NCBI GenBank assembly: GCA_030835845.1
Contig: JAUROD010000045.1
Location: 1 to 49,494, forward strand
Source of the DNA: Flavobacteriaceae bacterium
Lineage (GTDB): Bacteria; Bacteroidota; Bacteroidia; Flavobacteriales; Flavobacteriaceae
Length of the DNA: 49,494 bases
Reading direction: 5' to 3'
Below the pieces are notes generated by a model. That model saw only the letters and a list, made by a program, of their open reading frames with translations. It was not told where the DNA came from and ran no database searches. A program made the translations under genes and the position numbers. This document shows, in pieces, positions 30,485-43,294 of this stretch; position 1 is the stretch's first letter; each line of letters opens with the position of its first letter.

Positions 30485-31002
30485 TTTGCAAGTGATGCAT
30501 TAAATATATCTTGCGTAATTCGTTCAAAAATCAATTCGTTTGCCTCGGCTTTAATATCAAAAAGTTGTTTGTTTGCATCAAAATCATAAAAAAATGAAAA
30601 CCGTTTTTCAAATGAATCTTCTTCCCTTTTTGTATTTGTATAACGGACATTGACACCCATTGTTAATCGGTTTTGGGAGGCAGTGTTGTTTGATGTCGAA
30701 GTGGTTGGACTTATTGAATACTGTGTAATTTCTCCTTCGTAAACAAGATGCCCTCCTGTTTTTACCAAATTTAAATTGGTTTGATTTAGCAGTAAATCTT
30801 GCAATGCAATTGTAAACTCTTGATCTAGCCCTGGTTCAATGGTCGACCCGGGACGATTTCCAGCTTCGTTGGTGAAGTAATTGATTTGAAATGTCTCTGT
30901 TCCCGGAGGAACTGAGGCACCCGTAAATGAGTATATCCCACAGGAATAGGGGACTATTGCAAGTAAAATAAAACTTAAAAAAAGATTAATCCTCGTCTTC
31001 AT
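30478..31002 (-). CDS. lptE: LPS assembly lipoprotein LptE
   Basis: Lipobox-like [28 protein letters not shown]. Confidence 0.85.
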
Positions 31003-32257
31003 TCAGGTCAAACTGTTTAATTTTTCGATATAAGGTACGCTCCGAAATTCCAAGTTCCTCTGCAGCAACTTTTCGTTTTCCTTTACTTCGAGCCAATGCC
31101 TTTTTTATCATTTCAATTTCTTTATCAAGTAAAGATAAAGGTTCTTCTTCTTCAATTGTTTCTGCATAATCGTATTCGTCGGTCTCTTCAACCTTGGATG
31201 CAGCAGCTTCAATTTTTGGATTCACTACAGTTAATCGTGTTTCTTCAACAGCAGCTGAGGTCAACTCTGTACGACCATAAATTTTTTGAATCAAACCTTC
31301 CTTTTCCTCTTCACTAATTGAATCAAGGTCTTGATTCATTAGCTCTAAGGTAAGCTTTTTCAAATCACTCAAATCACTTTTCATATCAAAAAGGACTTTG
31401 TACAAAATTTCTCTTTCCGAACTAAAATCACTGCTTTCCTTTTTGTTATTTACCAATGCAGGAAGCTGTGACCCCATATCAGGAAGATAAGGACGAAGTT
31501 CAACAGCAGAAAGTTCTCGTTCTTTTTCAAGTACAGATAATTGCTCTGCCACATTTCTCAATTGTCGGATATTTCCATTCCAGTTGTACTGGGTTAACAA
31601 TTGCTGTGCATCTTCTTTTAATCGAAGTGTAGGCATACGATATTTTTGAGCAAAATCGGCTGCAAATTTTCGAAACAACAAAGGGATATCCTCTTTTCGA
31701 TCACGCAAAGGGGGGAGGTGGATTTCAACCGTGCTTAAACGGTAATATAAATCTTCTCTAAACTTATTTTTTTGAATTGCATCGCGCATAATCAAGTTGG
31801 TTGCAGCGACAATACGCACATTTGTTTTCTGTACTTTAGAGGATCCCACACGAATAAATTCACCCGTTTCAAGGACGCGTAACAATCGTACCTGAGTGGA
31901 AAGAGGAAGCTCACCAACTTCATCCAGAAAAATAGTTCCTCCATCAGCGACTTCAAAATAACCACTTCGATCGGAGGTAGCTCCTGTAAAGGCACCTTTT
32001 TCATGACCAAATAACTCAGAATCAATGGTTCCTTCTGGAATAGCACCACAGTTAACCGCAATATATTTGTTGTGTTTGCGTACAGAATTTTGGTGGATAA
32101 TTCGTGGAATATTTTCTTTTCCAACACCACTTTCACCGGTAACCAAAACCGAAATGTCTGTCGCTGCAACACGAAGCGCTTTTTCAAGGGCTCTGTCCAA
32201 TGAAGGATTCATCCCAATGATACCAAAACGTTGTTTTATGTGTTGTAAATTTTCCAT
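30986..32257 (-). CDS. Sigma-54 interaction domain, Fis-type transcriptional activator without N-terminal sensor domain
   Basis: [35 protein letters not shown]-terminal [20 protein letters not shown]; start set at [15 protein letters not shown]. Confidence 0.93.
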
Positions 32258-32259
32258 AG

Positions 32260-33744
32260 TTAAATCGCTTTCGAAATTCCAGTTGCTATACCCAGCAAAG
32301 TTGCAGAGGTACATTCCTCTACAAATACATCAACCAAATCGCCAATTTGATAGTTTTCTTTTGGGAAAACAACTACAGTATTTTGAGTCGTTCTTCCACT
32401 CCAATGAGCATCCGAACGCTTCGACTCTTTTTCAATCAAAACACAAACTTCTTTTCCTACATGCGATGCGGTTCGGAAACGACTGTGTGCTTGTTGTTTA
32501 TCAATGATTTCTTGCAATCTTCTTTTTTTGACTTTTTCAGGGATATCATCTTCCATTTTTCGTTCAGCAAGCGTACCCGGACGCTCCGAATAGGCAAACA
32601 TAAATCCAAAGTCATATTTCACATAATCCATCAAGCTAAGGGTGTCTTGATGATCTTCCTCTGTTTCGGTTGGAAAACCAGCAATCATATCTTGCGATAT
32701 ACCACAACCAGGAATAATTGTACGGATTTGATCAATCAATGTAATGTACTCTGCCCGGGTATGTAAACGGTTCATTTCTTTTAAAATACGATTACTTCCC
32801 GATTGTACAGGCAAATGAATGTACTTACATATATTGGGATACTTTGCCATGGTGTGCAAGACATCCACTGTCATATCCTGTGGATTGGAAGTTGAAAATC
32901 GAATTCGAATTCGGGGGTGTGCTTCAGCTACAAGCGTCAGAAGCTTTGAAAAGTCAACAGCTGTTTTTTGTTGAAGTGTAGAGGCTTTTGAAAAATCCTT
33001 CTTGAGTCCTCCACCATACCACAGATAACTATCGACGTTTTGTCCCAATAAAGTAATTTCTTTAAATCCCTTTTTTGCCAAATCGTTTACTTCTTCTAAA
33101 ATACTTTTAGGGTCGCGGCTTCGTTCTCTTCCTCGTGTAAAAGGAACAACACAAAAGGTACACATGTTGTCACAACCACGAGTAATTGAAACAAAAGCAC
33201 TTACTCCGTTGGAGTCCAATCGAACCGGAGCTATATCCCCATAGGTTTCTTCTTTGGATAAAATAACATTGACCGCATCACGTCCTTCATTGATTTCTGC
33301 TAAAAGATTTGGCAGGTCTTTGTAGGCATCTGGACCAACAACCATATCCACAATTTTTTCTTCTTCAAGAAATTTGTGTTTTAATCGTTCAGCCATACAT
33401 CCCAATACCCCAACTTTCATTGAAGGATTAGTTTTTTTGACTGCATTGAATTTTTCAAGTCGTTTGCGAACAGTTTGTTCTGCTTTTTCACGAATCGAAC
33501 AGGTGTTGATTAAAACCAAATCAGCCTCTGTCAATTCTTTTGTAGTGTGATACCCTTCTCCAGCAAGGATTGAAGCAACAACTTCACTGTCTGCAAAGTT
33601 CATCTGACAGCCATATGATTCGATAAAAACAGCCTTTCCCTCTTTTCCATTCGTTGCATTGGAGGAAATGATTACCCCATCAGTTTGTGGTGTAATTTTC
33701 TTTTCAACCATTTCGGTTGCAGTTTGATTGGCTTGTTTACTCAT
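32260..33744 (-). CDS. miaB: tRNA-2-methylthio-N6-dimethylallyladenosine synthase
   Basis: [11 protein letters not shown], radical [18 protein letters not shown] region. Confidence 0.95.
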
Positions 33745-33920: not shown

Positions 33921-33951
33921 TTTGACTCATGAAAAAATTCAGCTACTTTTG
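33921..33951 (+). promoter_or_regulatory. Bacteroidetes housekeeping promoter TTTG-N19-TACTTTTG for topA
   Basis: Exact consensus, 19 bp upstream of ATG 33971. Confidence 0.7.
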
Positions 33952-33970
33952 TCTGCAAAGATATCCACCT

Positions 33971-36460
33971 ATGGCAAAGAATTTAGTTATTGTTGAGTCA
34001 CCTGCAAAGGCGAAAACAATTGAGAAATTTCTAGGAAAAGAGTTTAAAGTAGCCTCTAGTTTTGGGCATATTGCGGATCTTCCTTCCAAAGAGCTTGGTG
34101 TGGATGTCGATGGAGATTTTTCACCAAAATACATTGTTTCTTCAGATAAAAAGAAAGTAGTTTCTGAATTAAAATCACTGGCTAAAAAAGCAGAAATGGT
34201 TTGGCTAGCAAGTGATGAAGATCGAGAAGGAGAAGCCATTGCATGGCATTTAGCCAACACACTTGATTTGGATGAAAAAAACACCAAACGTATTGTTTTT
34301 CATGAAATTACAAAAAATGCAATTCTCAATGCTATTGAAAAACCACGTGCAATAGACTACAATTTAGTCAATGCGCAACAAGCTCGTCGTGTGCTCGACC
34401 GATTGGTAGGATATGAATTGTCTCCCGTGCTTTGGAAAAAGGTAAAAGGTGGATTGTCTGCAGGTCGTGTACAGTCTGTGTCCGTTCGATTAATTGTGGA
34501 GAGAGAACGTGAAATTAAAGCGTTTATCCCAGAATCAACCTATAAAACACAAGCTGAATTTTTATCTAGCTCAAATAAGCTGATCAAAGCGCAACTGACC
34601 AAGCAATTTGAGGATGAAAAACAGGTCGAATCTTTTTTATCGACCAACAGCGATGCTACATTTAAGGTATCCTCGAAAGAAACTAAACCAGCAAAAAAGA
34701 GTCCAACGGCTCCATTTACTACTTCTACTTTACAACAAGAAGCAGCCCGAAAGTTATTCTTTTCGGTATCTAAAACGATGACCCTTGCACAACGTTTATA
34801 TGAAGCAGGTTTAATCACATACATGCGTACAGATAGCGTAAATTTATCTAAAGAAGCACAAAATGCTGCCCTCGGAGAAATTGAAAATAGGTACGGAAAA
34901 GAATATGTAAAAGCACGTTCATTTAAAAGTAAAAGCAAAGGTGCCCAAGAAGCACACGAAGCAATTCGTCCAACCGATCTAAGTCGAGATAAGGTTCAGG
35001 TTGATTTCGATCAAATGCGTTTATATGAATTGATTTGGAAACGCACAATTGCCTCTCAAATGAGTGATGCAAAACTGGAACGTACCGCATTAAAAATTAC
35101 TGCATCAACACACCCTAATCCATTTGTAGCGAAAGGAGAAATAATCACTTTTGAAGGTTTCCTTAAAGTGTATTTAGAAGGTGTTGACGACGACGAGGAA
35201 GAAGCTGAAGGTATTTTGCCTGCTGTTGAAGAAGGAGATCAACTCAATTTAAAAAGCTTGATTTCTACACAACGTTTTAGCCGACCTCCTTATCGATACA
35301 CAGAGGCTTCATTGGTTAAAAAACTTGAAGAGCTAGGAATCGGGAGACCATCCACTTATGCACCGACCATTTCAACTGTTCAGAATCGTGGTTATATAGC
35401 CAAAGGAGTAGTCGAAGGAGTAGCTCGAAATTATCAGCAGTTTAGTTTGGTCAACCAACAAGTCAAGAAAAATCTTCTTACCGAAATGGTAGGTTCTGAA
35501 AAAGGAAAGTTAGTACCAACAGATATTGGAATGATTGTCAACGATTTCTTGGTCAATAATTTCAAGGATATTTTAGATTACAATTTTACGGCTGATGTGG
35601 AGAAAAACTTCGATGAAATTGCCGAAGGTCGCGAAGATTGGGTAAAAATGATTAAAGGTTTTTATGGTCAATTTCAAACTACTGTAAATCATGTTAAAGA
35701 ACATGCTGAAAGAGAATCAGGAGAACGTATTTTAGGGAAACATCCTGAAAGTGGACGAACCGTAAAAGTGCGTTTAGGTAAATTTGGTCCTATCGCTCAG
35801 ATCGGGGATACAGATGACGATGAACCAACTATTTTTGCTAGTCTAACACAAGAACAACAACTCGATACAATTCTTTTTGAGGAAGCCCTCGAATTGTTTC
35901 AACTACCCAAAGATCTTGGGGAATATGAAGGTGAAAATGTGTCTGTAAATAATGGTCGCTTTGGTCCATATGTAAAGTTTGGAAATACTTTTGTTTCTCT
36001 GCCCAAAGGGTCAAATCCAATGGAAGTCGATCGTGATTTAGCGATTGAATTGATTGAGGAAAAGAAAAAAGCAGATGCACCGATTTATATGTATAACGAA
36101 CTTCCTGTTACCAAAGGGAAAGGACGTTTTGGACCTTTTATCAAATGGAGTGGAATGTTTATTAACGTAAACAAGAAATACGATTTTGACAACCTTTCAG
36201 AACAAGATATTGAGACGTTGATTGAAGAAAAAATCCAAAAGGAGAAAGATAAAGTTATTCATAATTGGGAAGCAGAAGGAATTCGTGTAGAAAAAGCACG
36301 TTGGGGTCGCTCAAACATAATTCAGGGGAAAGTAAAAATAGAACTAGGAAAAGAAATTGATGCAACAAAGTTGACCCTCGAAAAAGCTCAGGCTCTAATT
36401 GAAGCGAAAAAACCTAAAAAGAAAAAAGCTGCCCCCAAAAAGCGAACAACTAAAAAATAA
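33971..36460 (+). CDS. topA: DNA topoisomerase I
   Basis: MAKNLVIVESPAKAKTIEKFLG, ASDEDREGEAIAWHL, GLITYMRTDS; start corrected from the ORF track because the promoter overlaps the longer start. Confidence 0.97.
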   Translation: MAKNLVIVESPAKAKTIEKFLGKEFKVASSFGHIADLPSKELGVDVDGDFSPKYIVSSDKKKVVSELKSLAKKAEMVWLASDEDREGEAIAWHLANTLDLDEKNTKRIVFHEITKNAILNAIEKPRAIDYNLVNAQQARRVLDRLVGYELSPVLWKKVKGGLSAGRVQSVSVRLIVEREREIKAFIPESTYKTQAEFLSSSNKLIKAQLTKQFEDEKQVESFLSTNSDATFKVSSKETKPAKKSPTAPFTTSTLQQEAARKLFFSVSKTMTLAQRLYEAGLITYMRTDSVNLSKEAQNAALGEIENRYGKEYVKARSFKSKSKGAQEAHEAIRPTDLSRDKVQVDFDQMRLYELIWKRTIASQMSDAKLERTALKITASTHPNPFVAKGEIITFEGFLKVYLEGVDDDEEEAEGILPAVEEGDQLNLKSLISTQRFSRPPYRYTEASLVKKLEELGIGRPSTYAPTISTVQNRGYIAKGVVEGVARNYQQFSLVNQQVKKNLLTEMVGSEKGKLVPTDIGMIVNDFLVNNFKDILDYNFTADVEKNFDEIAEGREDWVKMIKGFYGQFQTTVNHVKEHAERESGERILGKHPESGRTVKVRLGKFGPIAQIGDTDDDEPTIFASLTQEQQLDTILFEEALELFQLPKDLGEYEGENVSVNNGRFGPYVKFGNTFVSLPKGSNPMEVDRDLAIELIEEKKKADAPIYMYNELPVTKGKGRFGPFIKWSGMFINVNKKYDFDNLSEQDIETLIEEKIQKEKDKVIHNWEAEGIRVEKARWGRSNIIQGKVKIELGKEIDATKLTLEKAQALIEAKKPKKKKAAPKKRTTKK

Positions 36461-36463
36461 AGT

Positions 36464-37612
36464 ATGGCACTTGATTTTCTTCAACCTATTGATGATACAG
36501 TGCTTGGAATAACATCTTTACTTCCAAAACAAGTCATTGGAAAATCCATACAGATTCACACAGAACGCAACGGTTTTCCATCGCTTAAAGATGCTCGAGT
36601 AGCTCTAATTGGTGTAAGCGAAAGTCGAAATAGTTATTATCCAGTCGAGGAATATGACATGGAGGCTTTTCGTCGCGAATTTTATCAATTATACCCTGGA
36701 AATTGGACGGTCGACTTTGTCGATTTAGGAAACCTTCCTTCAGGAGAAACTACCGAAGACACCTATTGGGCACTCAAAGATATTTGTCAGCACCTTCGTC
36801 AGGTGCAGATTATTCCACTAATTCTTGGTGGAAGTCAAGACCTTACAATAGCTTTATATCGCGCCTTTGAAAAAGGAACACAATGGGTAAATATAGTATC
36901 GGTTGATAATCGATTTGATTTTTCACAAGAGGAAGAATTAATTTCTGGACGTTCTTATATGAGTGAAATCATCATGGAACAAAATAGTCGATTAAATAAT
37001 TTTACCAACTTAGGATACCAATCCTATTTAATTGCTCAAGAAGAATTGGATTTGATGGATAAATTGTTTTTTGAGTGCCACCGTTTAGGAAAAGTACTAG
37101 ACGAACCCGCGTATACAGAGCCTGTTTTTAGAGAGGCAGATATTGCGAGTTTTGATATGAAAGTACTTAGTGGATTAGCCGATGGAAGTTTTTCAAATGG
37201 AATGCCTAACGGAATAGATAGTCGAACAGTATGTGCCCTTTCCCGCTATGCAGGCATTAGTGATCGTCTTTCAATGGTCGGTTTTTTTGATTTAAAAAAT
37301 ATCCCTGTTTTTCACAAATTACTAGCTCAAGTTGTCTGGTATTTTATAGAAGGAGTAGAATGTCGCTTTGATGAATATCCCGTCCTAACAAGCGAAGGGT
37401 TTAAAAAGTACACAGTGGCTATGTCAGATCGTGAATTGATTTTTTATAAAAGTGAAAAAAGTAAACGATGGTGGATGGAAATGACAAATGAAAGCTACTT
37501 GGATAATAAAAAGCCTGCAAATACGTTGTTGTCTTGTACACACCAGGATTATCTGGATGCTTGTAAAGACGAATTACCCGAAAGATGGTGGAAGGCATCA
37601 AAACGAAATTAA
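36464..37612 (+). CDS. Arginase/formimidoylglutamase-fold protein with degraded metal-binding motifs, probable pseudoenzyme
   Basis: ILGGSQDLT (for GGDHS), VDNRFDF (for DAHxD), SFDMK (for SxDxD); about 4 bp after topA, upstream of gldK. Confidence 0.8.
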   Translation: MALDFLQPIDDTVLGITSLLPKQVIGKSIQIHTERNGFPSLKDARVALIGVSESRNSYYPVEEYDMEAFRREFYQLYPGNWTVDFVDLGNLPSGETTEDTYWALKDICQHLRQVQIIPLILGGSQDLTIALYRAFEKGTQWVNIVSVDNRFDFSQEEELISGRSYMSEIIMEQNSRLNNFTNLGYQSYLIAQEELDLMDKLFFECHRLGKVLDEPAYTEPVFREADIASFDMKVLSGLADGSFSNGMPNGIDSRTVCALSRYAGISDRLSMVGFFDLKNIPVFHKLLAQVVWYFIEGVECRFDEYPVLTSEGFKKYTVAMSDRELIFYKSEKSKRWWMEMTNESYLDNKKPANTLLSCTHQDYLDACKDELPERWWKASKRN

Positions 37613-37678
37613 CTACTATTTCAATGAATTTTGAGGTAGAATAAAATAATAATGTACACGAAACGTTTAAAGTGTAAT

Positions 37679-39043
37679 ATGAGAAAAATAATTGTTTTCA
37701 TTTTTAGTGTGCTACTTCTTGCTAGTTGTAAAAACAAGCAGGGAGAACTAAGTGGATTACAACAGAAAAAATGGTTTCCAGAAAAACCAAAAGGAATGAC
37801 TCTTATTGAGGGTGGTTCTTTTGTAATGGGATCTCAAGACGAAGACATTGCAGGACAAAAAAATGCCCCCCTAAAAACCGTTTCTGTCCGTTCGTTTTTT
37901 ATGGATGAAACCGAAATTACCAATAGTGAATATCGCCAATTTGTTCATTGGGTAAGAGACTCTGTAACTCTTTCTTTATTAGCTCGAAAAGTAGATGAAT
38001 TGGGTTTGTCAGCCAACGACGAAAATGGAATCGGAAAGTATGCCTTTAAAGATGCAGATACAGCTAGTTTGTCAGAGTTTCAAAAATATATGCGCGAAAA
38101 TTATTATGACGTTTCTGAGGATTTTTATGCAGGCCGTGCACTTAATTGGGATGCTGAAATAGAATGGAATCCAGAAAATTATATGGATCAAGCATATGCA
38201 GAAGTGATGGATAGCATGTACTTACCACCCGATGTTTGGTACAATGGACAAATGAAAATTGATGTTAAAAAATTTGTGTATCAATACTTATTCTTTGATG
38301 CAGAAGCAGCAGCAAGAGCAGGAGCTAATTCATCAAAAGGACGTATGCAGTTCATCCAAAAGAAAGAATTGGAAATTTACCCAGACACTACAGTTTGGAT
38401 AAAAGACTTTAGCTATTCCTACAACGAGCCGATGCACAATAATTATTTTTCGCATCCAGCCTATGACGAATATCCAGTTGTTGGAGTTTCATGGGAACAG
38501 GCAGTAGCCTTTTGCAATTGGCGAACACGTATTAAAAACAACTTTTTAAAAGGAAAGAAGAAACCCCCCGTCAGTGACTTTAGGTTACCCAGCGAGGCAG
38601 AATGGGAATATGCTGCTCGTGGAGGCCTTCCCTCCGCAACCTATCCATGGGGATCCTCATATCTGTTGGATGATCGGGGTTGTTTTCTGGCTAATTTTAA
38701 ACCATTAAGAGGGGATTATGCTGCTGATCAAGCCCTGTATACTGTCGAAGCAAAATCATATTATCCCAACGATTACAATCTTTATAATATGGCAGGAAAT
38801 GTGTCGGAATGGACCGGTTCGTCCTACGACCCTCTAAGCTACGATTATGTGTCTTCTCTTAATCCAAATTTGTCCTTGAAAGAAGAAGAAAGAAAAGTTA
38901 TTCGCGGAGGCTCTTGGAAAGATGTGGCTTACTTTTTACGCGTTAGTACAAGAGATTACGAGTATCAAGATACCGCTAGAAGTTATATTGGATTCCGAAC
39001 TGTTCAAGACTATTTGGGATCGAAAAGTGTTAAAATGAAATAA
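37679..39043 (+). CDS. gldK: Gliding motility/T9SS lipoprotein GldK (FGE-sulfatase fold)
   Basis: Lipobox LLASC; EGGSFVMGSQDED, FRLPSEAEWEYAARGG, NVSEWTGSSYDP; first of gldKLMN. Confidence 0.95.
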   Translation: MRKIIVFIFSVLLLASCKNKQGELSGLQQKKWFPEKPKGMTLIEGGSFVMGSQDEDIAGQKNAPLKTVSVRSFFMDETEITNSEYRQFVHWVRDSVTLSLLARKVDELGLSANDENGIGKYAFKDADTASLSEFQKYMRENYYDVSEDFYAGRALNWDAEIEWNPENYMDQAYAEVMDSMYLPPDVWYNGQMKIDVKKFVYQYLFFDAEAAARAGANSSKGRMQFIQKKELEIYPDTTVWIKDFSYSYNEPMHNNYFSHPAYDEYPVVGVSWEQAVAFCNWRTRIKNNFLKGKKKPPVSDFRLPSEAEWEYAARGGLPSATYPWGSSYLLDDRGCFLANFKPLRGDYAADQALYTVEAKSYYPNDYNLYNMAGNVSEWTGSSYDPLSYDYVSSLNPNLSLKEEERKVIRGGSWKDVAYFLRVSTRDYEYQDTARSYIGFRTVQDYLGSKSVKMK

Positions 39044-39053
39044 ATACAATACA

Positions 39054-39695
39054 ATGGACGCAACACAAGTTAAAGGTCGATTAAAAAGAAAAGTGATAAT
39101 GCATATGCTCTTTCAGTTTGGAGGATCAATTGTAATTATTGGAGCATTGTTTAAAATTTCACATATTGATATTGGACCAATTAGTGGTGGCTTTGTTTTA
39201 GGAGTAGGACTTATTATGGAAGCTGTTATTTTCTTTGTAGGTGGTTTGATGCTTGACGATGTTCATGAAGAACAAGAAGAATTTTTACATAACAGACAAT
39301 TACGTAAAACAGGAATTGGAAATAAGGAAGAAGGATTGTCTGAAAAAATTGACGCTATGCTTCGTGAAGCAAAACTAGATGTGACCGTTGTTGATGGATT
39401 GAAAAAAAGTATTGAAAATCTAGAGGCATCAGCAAAGGCTTTAGCTCCAGCTGCTGAGGTAATTTCTTCTTCCAACAACTATTCAGAACAACTGGATGTA
39501 GCATCGAAAAAATTATCCTCGCTAAATGAATTGTATGATAGCCAACTTAAAAATGCAACATCTACTGGAGAGTATAACGATCAAATCGCTCAAAATGCAG
39601 AGCGATTAAAAGCACAAATGGATTTACTTTCTGCAAATTTAGCTTCACTCAATGAGGTATATGAAGCAATGCTAAAAGCGATGAATAAAAACTAA
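39054..39695 (+). CDS. gldL: Gliding motility/T9SS motor protein GldL
   Basis: Two TM helices with GALFKISHIDIGPISGG and Glu in TM2; position between gldK and gldM. Confidence 0.92.
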   Translation: MDATQVKGRLKRKVIMHMLFQFGGSIVIIGALFKISHIDIGPISGGFVLGVGLIMEAVIFFVGGLMLDDVHEEQEEFLHNRQLRKTGIGNKEEGLSEKIDAMLREAKLDVTVVDGLKKSIENLEASAKALAPAAEVISSSNNYSEQLDVASKKLSSLNELYDSQLKNATSTGEYNDQIAQNAERLKAQMDLLSANLASLNEVYEAMLKAMNKN

Positions 39696-39698
39696 CCT

Positions 39699-41282
39699 AT
39701 GGCTTCAGCAAGAGAAACCCCACGTAATAAACTCATTACGTTGATGTATTTGGTTTTTATCGCCATGCTCGCACTAAATGTGAGTAAAGAAGTGTTGGAT
39801 GGCTTTGGTCAAGTGTTCAAAAAAGTATCAAAATCCAATGAACGTGTCTACCAAGGAAATCAATTGTTTTACGAGAAAATTGAAACCAATTCCATTGAAA
39901 AGAAAGGCAAGTGGATCGCTCAAAATGAAAGAGCTAAAAAAATTAAAATTGCTTCAGAAAATTTCCATCAAAAAATTGAAGATTTAAAAAATCTGATAAC
40001 CGAAAAACAACGGTTAAAAGATCCTAATCTTGAAAACTTTGAAGAGATGGACAATGGAGAAAGTTTAGATATTGTTTTTTTTGATTCAAGCGGGATCTCC
40101 CCTGAAGGAGATGAATTTATTGATTTGATTAATCGTTACAAAGCCGAATTACACCAGCTATTCTCCAATGAATTTAGTCAATATAAAGCGCTCATTGATG
40201 AACGTTTTTTTACTGGAGATGAAAACGGAAATATCATCAATAGCGATGGACAACCACAATCATGGTTATCCCATAATTTTGAAGGATTTCCATTGATTTC
40301 ATCATTGGCGAAATTCACGATGCTACAAAATGATATTCGATTGACAGAAAGTGATGTATTGAATGCGCTTTTGGGTCGTGAGTTGGAGGGTAGTAGCGAG
40401 GTTAATACTGAAAACTACATAACTTTGCTCAAGGCTGAAAGAGGTGTGTATTATCAAGGTGAAAAATTCAATGGTAGTGTTTTGTTAGGACGAAAATCAG
40501 GTGCTCAAAATCCAAATGATGTCGTCTTATCAATTGATGGACGAAAGCTTTCCTCCAAAGAATATACAAAAATACCAGGTGGAGTTTCACTTGATGTGGA
40601 TGCCGGTCTCCCAGGTGATCATTTTATTGAGGGAGAATTGGTATTCTTGAATGAAGGTGTAGCCTCTAAAATTCCTGTTAACCAAAGTTATTCTGTAATT
40701 GCTAAACCCAATTCAGCAGTAATTTCAGCTGATAAAATGAACGTTGTTTATCGTGGAGTAGAAAATCCAATGACAATTTCAATACCTGGAATTTCAGACG
40801 ATAAAATCAATGCTTCTGCACCTGGATTAAAACGACTTAGAGGAAGTAAGTATACGATGAACCCTGGAAAAGGAAGAGAGTTGACTATCACTGCAAGTGG
40901 AGAGTTGCCAGATGGAGAAAAAATTACAACAAAAACAAAATTTCGTATAAAAGACCTTCCCCGTCCTACTGGTTCTGTACGTGGAGAAACTGGGAGTATT
41001 CAGATTCCACGATCCAATCTTGAAATTTCAACCATTGGGGCAGTTCTAGAGGATTTTGATTTTGATTTAACCTTGCGTACCACAGGATTTAAATTTAAGG
41101 TACCTGGTCAAGCTACAGTCAATGTGAAAGGAAATAAATTGGATGCAAAAGCCAAAAATGCTTTGCGAAGAGCACGTGCTGGACAAACCATCCAAATTTT
41201 TGATATTACGGTGGTCAACCCCAACAATCCAAGTTATAGATTTAAAAAGGTTTCTCCCGTAATTTGTGAATTAGTTAATTAA
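39699..41282 (+). CDS. gldM: Gliding motility/T9SS motor protein GldM
   Basis: ETPRNKLITLMYLVFIAMLALNVSKEVLDGF. Confidence 0.96.
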   Translation: MASARETPRNKLITLMYLVFIAMLALNVSKEVLDGFGQVFKKVSKSNERVYQGNQLFYEKIETNSIEKKGKWIAQNERAKKIKIASENFHQKIEDLKNLITEKQRLKDPNLENFEEMDNGESLDIVFFDSSGISPEGDEFIDLINRYKAELHQLFSNEFSQYKALIDERFFTGDENGNIINSDGQPQSWLSHNFEGFPLISSLAKFTMLQNDIRLTESDVLNALLGRELEGSSEVNTENYITLLKAERGVYYQGEKFNGSVLLGRKSGAQNPNDVVLSIDGRKLSSKEYTKIPGGVSLDVDAGLPGDHFIEGELVFLNEGVASKIPVNQSYSVIAKPNSAVISADKMNVVYRGVENPMTISIPGISDDKINASAPGLKRLRGSKYTMNPGKGRELTITASGELPDGEKITTKTKFRIKDLPRPTGSVRGETGSIQIPRSNLEISTIGAVLEDFDFDLTLRTTGFKFKVPGQATVNVKGNKLDAKAKNALRRARAGQTIQIFDITVVNPNNPSYRFKKVSPVICELVN

Positions 41283-42190: not shown

Positions 42191-42210
42191 TCAAATTTAT
42201 TCCTATAAAA

Positions 42211-42238
42211 GACGCTGCATGATTGCAGCGTTTTTTTA
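42211..42238 (+). terminator. Intrinsic terminator of gldKLMN operon
   Basis: ACGCTGCA-TGAT-TGCAGCGT followed by T6. Confidence 0.92.
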
Positions 42239-42247
42239 TTTTTGACA

Positions 42248-43294
42248 ATGAAAAAAGTAGATTGCTTGGTGATTGGTCTTGGGTTAGCAGGACTAAGTTT
42301 TGCCGAAACCTTGCGTTTAGAAGGTAAATCGGTTCATGTGATCGATTCAAAAAAATCAGGTTCATCCGCAATCGCAGCCGGAATTTATAACCCTACAGTC
42401 CTCAAACGATTTAACCTCAGTTGGAACGGAGTAAAGTTTCACGAAACTGCATTGCCCTTTTATCAAAGTATTGAAAAAAGACTCAATCAAAATTTACTCC
42501 GCCGCTTACCTATCCATAAAATATTTTCAGAAGCAGCCGATCATAATCAATGGATTGTCGCTTCAGATCGTGAGGGATTGGACTTTTTTTTGGATTCAAA
42601 AATAAAACATGACCAACATCAAGGAATCAAAACACCTTATGGATATGGTACAGTAAAACACTGTGGTCGACTTGACACTGCTACACTCATAGAAACGTAT
42701 AAATCTGCTTTAGGAAACGATTACCAGCAAGAAAATTTTGATTACCATGCTTTAGAAATCCTTGATAATTCAATCCGTTATAAATCAATAGAAGCATCTC
42801 ACATTGTTTTTTGTGAAGGTTATGCCATGGTAGACAATCCATTTTTTTCCTATTTGCCATTGATCGGATCAAAGGGACAGATTTTATTAATTAGGTCAAG
42901 TCAGTTGTCGTCAAAAATGATTTTAAAGGGTCCGATTTTCATTGCTCCACTTCACGATGACTTATTTTGGGCGGGAGCATCTTTTGAACAACAAGATAAA
43001 TCACTCCAAACAACTGAGGAGGGAAAGGATTGGGTGCTTCGAAAAATTCATCAAATGATTGAAGTTCCATTTACAGTTGAAGAACAGATTGCACAAATCC
43101 GTCCAACAGTTAAAGATCGTCGTCCACTGGTAGGAACACATTCTTCAAGCAGAAGAATTCATCTTTTAAACGGTTTTGGATCTCGCGGAGTTTTAACTGC
43201 ACCCCTTGCTTCGAGATGGCTTTTTAATGCAATATTTAAGAACGAATCACTACCTGATGAGGTAAATATTTCGCGCTTCGAAAAAAAGGTGTGA
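42248..43294 (+). CDS. FAD-dependent oxidoreductase (DAO family)
   Basis: CLVIGLGLAGLSFAETLRLEG Rossmann motif; C-terminal RPTVKDRRPLVG, GFGSRGVLTAPL. Confidence 0.88.
   Translation: MKKVDCLVIGLGLAGLSFAETLRLEGKSVHVIDSKKSGSSAIAAGIYNPTVLKRFNLSWNGVKFHETALPFYQSIEKRLNQNLLRRLPIHKIFSEAADHNQWIVASDREGLDFFLDSKIKHDQHQGIKTPYGYGTVKHCGRLDTATLIETYKSALGNDYQQENFDYHALEILDNSIRYKSIEASHIVFCEGYAMVDNPFFSYLPLIGSKGQILLIRSSQLSSKMILKGPIFIAPLHDDLFWAGASFEQQDKSLQTTEEGKDWVLRKIHQMIEVPFTVEEQIAQIRPTVKDRRPLVGTHSSSRRIHLLNGFGSRGVLTAPLASRWLFNAIFKNESLPDEVNISRFEKKV

Follow-up and report, generated by a model that had tools for sequence, protein, structure and literature searches.

The gene between topA and gldK in this flavobacterial genome raises two questions: whether a protein that resembles arginases in fold is still an enzyme, and whether its place directly before T9SS and gliding genes has any functional meaning. 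The window referred to here is the whole stretch of DNA that was analysed, 49,494 nucleotides of contig JAUROD010000045.1 (GCA_030835845.1). The genes and signals of the run are as follows.

33929 to 36460, forward strand: topA, from synteny, ending 3 nt 5′ of the pseudo-ureohydrolase ORF
36464 to 37612, forward strand: the pseudo-ureohydrolase ORF between topA and gldK, 382 aa, scoring 26.7 bits to Pfam Arginase and with no evident signal peptide in its sequence
37652 to 39043, forward strand: gldK, a syntenic match, beginning 39 nt 3′ of the pseudo-ureohydrolase ORF
39054 to 39695, forward strand: gldL, from synteny
39699 to 41282, forward strand: gldM, 390.6 bits to TIGR03517
41294 to 42190, forward strand: gldN, from synteny
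42207 to 42236, forward strand: terminator-like hairpin 3′ of gldN, the strongest within 33.7-42.3 kb

The initial annotation had described the ORF as part of a tight run with topA, directly before gldKLMN, and the gaps of 3 and 39 nt confirm this. Further downstream the intergenic gaps are 10 nt (gldK-gldL), 3 nt (gldL-gldM) and 11 nt (gldM-gldN), and the hairpin distal to gldN is the only same-strand terminator-like hairpin between genes of the topA-gldN run. The two gaps that flank the ORF, together with this terminator, suggest co-transcription, and topA, the ORF and gldKLMN likely form a six-gene operon. A promoter scan gave matches no more numerous than those in shuffles. Divergent from topA lie a sigma-54-type regulator gene and miaB (30986-33744), a layout kept in many Flavobacteriaceae and in some other families, whilst an FAD-dependent oxidoreductase-like gene (42242-43294) follows the gldN terminator and holds the same place in other Flavobacteriaceae loci.

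The score of the ORF protein against Pfam PF00491 exceeds the gathering score of 22, which places it in the arginase superfamily. A profile of 32 relatives was aligned by hhalign with 11 canonical ureohydrolases over 306 columns (E 2.4e-45), with the metal motifs in register and free of gaps. Moreover, when an AlphaFold model of the protein (pLDDT 78, pTM 0.84) was compared with the PDB using Foldseek, the best 50 matches were all ureohydrolases; the metformin hydrolase complex (8x3g, 8snf, 8ryi) was among the top matches, with metformin hydrolase at E 3e-14, and Trypanosoma cruzi formiminoglutamase was matched with a target TM of 0.74. These comparisons establish that the protein has an arginase fold, as first supposed. 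The best NCBIfam model for the ORF is HutG (TIGR01227), which is also the model that matches most family members (31/32), and NCBIfam holds no model for the pseudo-ureohydrolase family. The initial annotation had expected the protein to be misannotated as a formimidoylglutamase; a HutG match does exist, but at 23.8 bits it falls far below the cut-off of 229 and fails to place the protein in that family.

In arginase, Mn-A is bound by H101, D124, D128 and D232, and Mn-B by D124, H126, D232 and D234. The features of the ORF product, all encoded on the forward strand, can be set against these ligands.

36587 to 37363, forward strand: arginase-fold region, residues ~42-300, from hhalign, AlphaFold and Foldseek
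36827 to 36841, forward strand: GGSQD in place of GGDHS, residues 122-126, with H101 replaced by Q125 in the ligand alignment
36905 to 36919, forward strand: DNRFD in place of DAHxD, residues 148-152, with D124 and D128 kept (D148, D152) and H126 replaced by R150
37118 to 37132, forward strand: EPVFR, residues 219-223, a family-specific EPxxR motif that hardly varies between members and is missing from canonical enzymes
37148 to 37162, forward strand: SFDMK in place of SxDxD, residues 229-233, with D232 kept (D231) and D234 replaced by K233
37373 to 37609, forward strand: family-specific C-terminal domain, residues ~304-382, with four strands, two helices and the residues W336-W337, C358 and D362-Y363

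When the ORF protein is aligned with 11 intact ureohydrolases, two of which this genome encodes, it reads Q-D-R-D-D-K in the six ligand columns against H-D-H-D-D-D. Three of the six ligands are therefore lost, and the substitutions named at the outset (H to Q, H to R, D to K) are exact in both the ligand alignment and the profile alignment. The latter, which keeps the motifs in register, approaches by profile rather than by structure the question whether intact Mn ligands lie elsewhere in the protein. The two other ureohydrolases of this genome (L001, G000:C7:17506-18279; L002, G000:C11:59115-60008) have six intact ligands each, and the loss is thus specific to the gene between topA and gldK.

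The same kind of loss is found throughout a family set of 151 relatives, the ORF protein included. Within it none of the six ligands is kept in 2 members, one in 17, two in 5, three in 107 and four in 20; no member of the 151 has five or six, and none has both of the ligands that belong to Mn-B only (H126 and D234). By comparison, nine of the 11 canonical controls have six and two have five. Among the 84 members of a non-redundant subset (below 60% identity), D124 is kept in 74, D128 in 63 and D232 in 70, whilst position 126 is His in 4 and position 234 is Asp in 4. As H126 and D234 hardly ever survive, and never together, the Mn-B site would be abolished across the family, and the Mn-A site appears reduced mostly to acidic residues. 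With the ligands of the binuclear Mn site gone, the hydroxide that bridges the metals and attacks the guanidinium could no longer form. The ORF protein is thus very probably a pseudoenzyme, non-catalytic as a ureohydrolase, in agreement with the original reading. Automatic annotation may label the protein as a working formimidoylglutamase (HutG) or agmatinase, a reading that we reject on the ligands and the score: the widespread HutG matches speak for it, but they are set against a score far below the cut-off and the replacement of three ligands and of the substrate Glu, and we give this reading practically no credence.

The pattern of loss leaves room for another kind of chemistry. The protein could still be an enzyme or a metal-dependent ligand binder whose Mn-A residues (Q/H101, D124, D128, D232) bind one metal and support a new reaction. 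In favour of this the ligand loss is patterned and not random, since D124, D128 and D232 are kept while H126 and D234 almost never are. However, most family members have replaced the ligand at position 101 (by Q, S, K, R or another residue), and the guanidinium-binding E277, which is Glu in 47/84, has often become D, N or G (Asp in the ORF protein). Moreover, members from Weeksellaceae and from family f5 have lost aspartate ligands too, lineage-wide. We therefore regard a retained single-metal activity as improbable. Four loci of a Weeksellaceae-like family of the same order (L064, L065, L066 and L087, family f2) have lost more of the aspartates, and their C-terminal WW is weakened (LWYF).

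A non-catalytic ureohydrolase fold may also join an intact ureohydrolase in a hetero-oligomer and be its inactive subunit, in the style of MetCb-MetCa. Subunits of metformin hydrolase are top Foldseek matches of the model, such a pair is documented (PMC11271267), and the two intact ureohydrolases encoded elsewhere in this genome could in principle act as partners. Against this, no intact ureohydrolase gene is adjacent, and the protein is the sole PF00491 protein in 10/45 carrier genomes, including the nearly complete G756 and G099. A protein that is often the only arginase fold of its genome needs no catalytic partner, and an obligate partnership with an intact ureohydrolase is disfavoured to the point of being very improbable.

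Could the degraded metal motifs simply mark a decaying arginase pseudogene? The family forms one side of a single branch (SH-aLRT 98), although long branches are present and the inner placement is unsure. Among close relatives of this genome dN/dS is 0.02-0.05, similar to that of gldK-N, with dS near saturation, and purifying selection on the family is shown by these sequence comparisons. Residues that are near-invariant among the 84 non-redundant members, and not in canonical enzymes, have also arisen: R207, G209, E219 (82/84), P220 (80/84), R223 (83/84), C257 and W292 (84/84). The C-terminal extension that the initial annotation had put at about 90 aa is real, but is nearer ~80 aa; it does not occur in canonical ureohydrolases and carries its own near-invariant residues (F327, W336, W337, C358, D362, Y363 and P372). 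A model of this domain (pTM 0.60, moderate confidence) found no PDB fold match at E<=0.001, the best being no better than E 2. Full-length ORFs, the low dN/dS and new invariant residues in 84 divergent members refute decay, which has a negligible chance of being right. Rather, as far as the sequences tell, this is a monophyletic family spread over Bacteroidia and not a decaying one-off.

We then ask what the neighbourhood of the gene means. In Flavobacteriaceae the order topA, pseudo-ureohydrolase, gldK occurs in every sampled locus. Among 113 informative loci, largely outside Flavobacteriaceae, 64 have topA upstream and gldKLMN downstream, 19 have topA only, 2 have gldKLMN only and 28 have neither, an arrangement seen in Sphingobacteriaceae and several other families. 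A PorP/SprF gene (TIGR03519) commonly stands between the pseudo-ureohydrolase gene and gldK outside Flavobacteriaceae. Gene order with T9SS genes is therefore conserved across distant lineages. Neither the motif loss, shared in kind by 151 relatives, nor the gene order, met again in many families, is a matter of chance. In the f2 loci mentioned above, topA has stayed within a few kb of the gene and gldKLMN has not.

This order may nevertheless be inherited and without functional meaning, the protein having a non-catalytic, general role in Bacteroidota, for instance one connected with topA or with cell physiology. Adjacency to topA is the most persistent (83/113) and remains at loci where gldKLMN has moved away, whereas in 66/113 the gene is followed by gldKLMN on its own strand. 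Moreover, miaB, on the far side of topA, is conserved as well (divergent from topA in 31/81 loci) with no T9SS meaning. Used as a control, however, miaB is kept less than gldKLMN, and adjacency to gldKLMN outlasts the miaB-topA pair, surviving in Bacteroidales where miaB is gone. Hence conservation is greatest for topA, intermediate on the gld side and lowest for miaB, a neighbour with no known link. In the f5 lineage (L058, L076, L078), where topA and gldKLMN are gone as neighbours, the gene stands beside murF-gldJ, with porU close and porP in 2/3. A gldJ-porU neighbourhood away from topA is suggestive, although it concerns one lineage, may go back to one event and might be due to chance. These three f5 proteins are very divergent and shortened, and only the C-terminal part of the family signature is clear in them.

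The distribution of the gene bears on the same choice. The family profile and the GldM model were run against 376 genomes of the class and, as a second sample, 129 genomes of the order to which Draconibacterium belongs, which we take to be Bacteroidales. In the class GldM was found in 350/353 carriers and 15/23 non-carriers (Fisher 8e-9), and in the order in 89/90 carriers and 29/39 non-carriers (Fisher 2e-5), both tests ignoring shared ancestry; three of the class-sample carriers rest on weak matches (~1e-18 to 1e-20). With SprA as an independent T9SS marker, three apparent GldM-less carriers resolve differently: in G675 the contig ends after gldL and SprA is present, in G723 gldM adjoins the gene, and in G522 SprA is present. 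Most genomes without T9SS do not carry the gene, even though topA occurs universally, which argues against a general role. Genomes with neither the gene nor the T9SS markers include several Bacteroidales and the 0.3-0.6 Mb reduced genomes of family f129, which gave only weak matches (~1e-4) read as canonical arginase. Many of the T9SS-negative genomes are reduced ones that lose much, and this counts against a T9SS link. Some exceptions stand and favour the general role: G488 (99% complete) has an intact gene, G345 (a MAG) has the gene too, and in neither were GldM, GldN or SprA found. In G002 (one contig, family f3) the gene and GldM are present and SprA was not found; G002 and G488 are of one genus, and T9SS may be in the course of being lost in their lineage. 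Three genomes of family f122 (G754, G766, G776) have a recognisable but divergent SprA and no pseudo-ureohydrolase.

Presence of the gene thus nearly implies T9SS genes, with exceptions, and T9SS does not imply the gene, since at least 44 GldM-positive genomes are without it (15/365 in the class and 29/118 in the order). A core T9SS component is rejected on these genomes; the adjacency to topA that outlasts gldKLMN and the carriers without T9SS markers point the same way. The tie to T9SS that had been proposed accordingly fares unevenly: gene order over many families and the near-nested distribution speak for it, whilst the better-kept topA and the two or three carriers without T9SS markers speak against it. 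On balance the genomic evidence tips slightly towards a functional T9SS link, and a general role with merely inherited gene order strikes us as possible but rather unlikely.

Taken together, the explanation that we lean towards overall is a pseudo-ureohydrolase that would serve the T9SS as an accessory or regulator. The binuclear Mn site of its ancestor, a formimidoylglutamase- or agmatinase-like enzyme, would have been taken apart as the Mn-B-only ligands H126 and D234, and usually H101 too, were lost. The fold would have been retained, a C-terminal domain added, and the new invariant motifs (R-G, EPxxR, W292, WW/C/DY) would have arisen. With no evident signal peptide the protein is presumably cytoplasmic, and it may act by binding, protein to protein, possibly under the control of a small ligand or of one metal bound in what is left of the Mn-A pocket. 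Its most plausible service to the T9SS would be to assist or regulate, from the cytosol, the GldL/GldM motor of the inner membrane, and it would not be a structural part indispensable to T9SS. Among the proteins encoded in the operon, GldL and GldM are those that sit in the inner membrane and extend into the cytoplasm, and they are therefore the first candidate partners. A specific contact with GldL or GldM is nonetheless speculative, and it is equally doubtful whether, in a cytosolic accessory of the T9SS and gliding motor, the remnant metal/guanidino pocket and the C-terminal domain contact GldL/GldM to tune the motor to a metabolite.

The ORF is probably, then, a misannotated non-enzyme that helps or regulates the T9SS/gliding machine. 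The family occurs in most sampled Flavobacteriales and much of the remaining Bacteroidia, encoded in the well-studied gldKLMN neighbourhood, where sub-threshold similarity to HutG or arginase would hide it in annotation. Should it act on T9SS, it would provide an input from the cytosol to a rotary secretion motor about whose control little is known; should it not, a large conserved pseudoenzyme family would still be without a function. Within the open-access literature no relevant report of an arginase-like T9SS gene was found, and in the searchable literature the family, its added domain and its gene context are apparently previously undescribed.

Compared with known systems, the protein shares with HutG (TIGR01227, within PF00491) the fold and the core motifs in register, and HutG is its best family-level sequence match; it differs in having no binuclear metal site and no conserved substrate Glu, in its C-terminal domain and in a score far below the cut-off. 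With the T9SS/gliding operon (porP-)gldKLMN it shares the run, the strand and a near-nested distribution; as far as found, however, its family is not a named T9SS component, and it is missing from many T9SS genomes. Pseudo-arginases are already known, and PMC11271267 cites the Trypanosoma brucei arginase-like protein, MetCb and domains of Fusobacteriaceae. MetCb/MfmB of metformin hydrolase (8x3g, 8snf, 8ryi) is likewise a metal-free ureohydrolase fold, working by protein-protein contact, but MetCb pairs with an active paralogue whereas the ORF protein is often alone of its fold in the genome. The T. brucei pseudoenzyme (Hai et al. 2015) has no binuclear Mn cluster, and its function is termed elusive (PMC11271267). 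The two are alike, by description and not by sequence, as arginase folds that evolved without the binuclear Mn cluster. The trypanosome protein is eukaryotic and presumably of independent origin, whereas here a whole bacterial family carries a new domain and a gene-context link.
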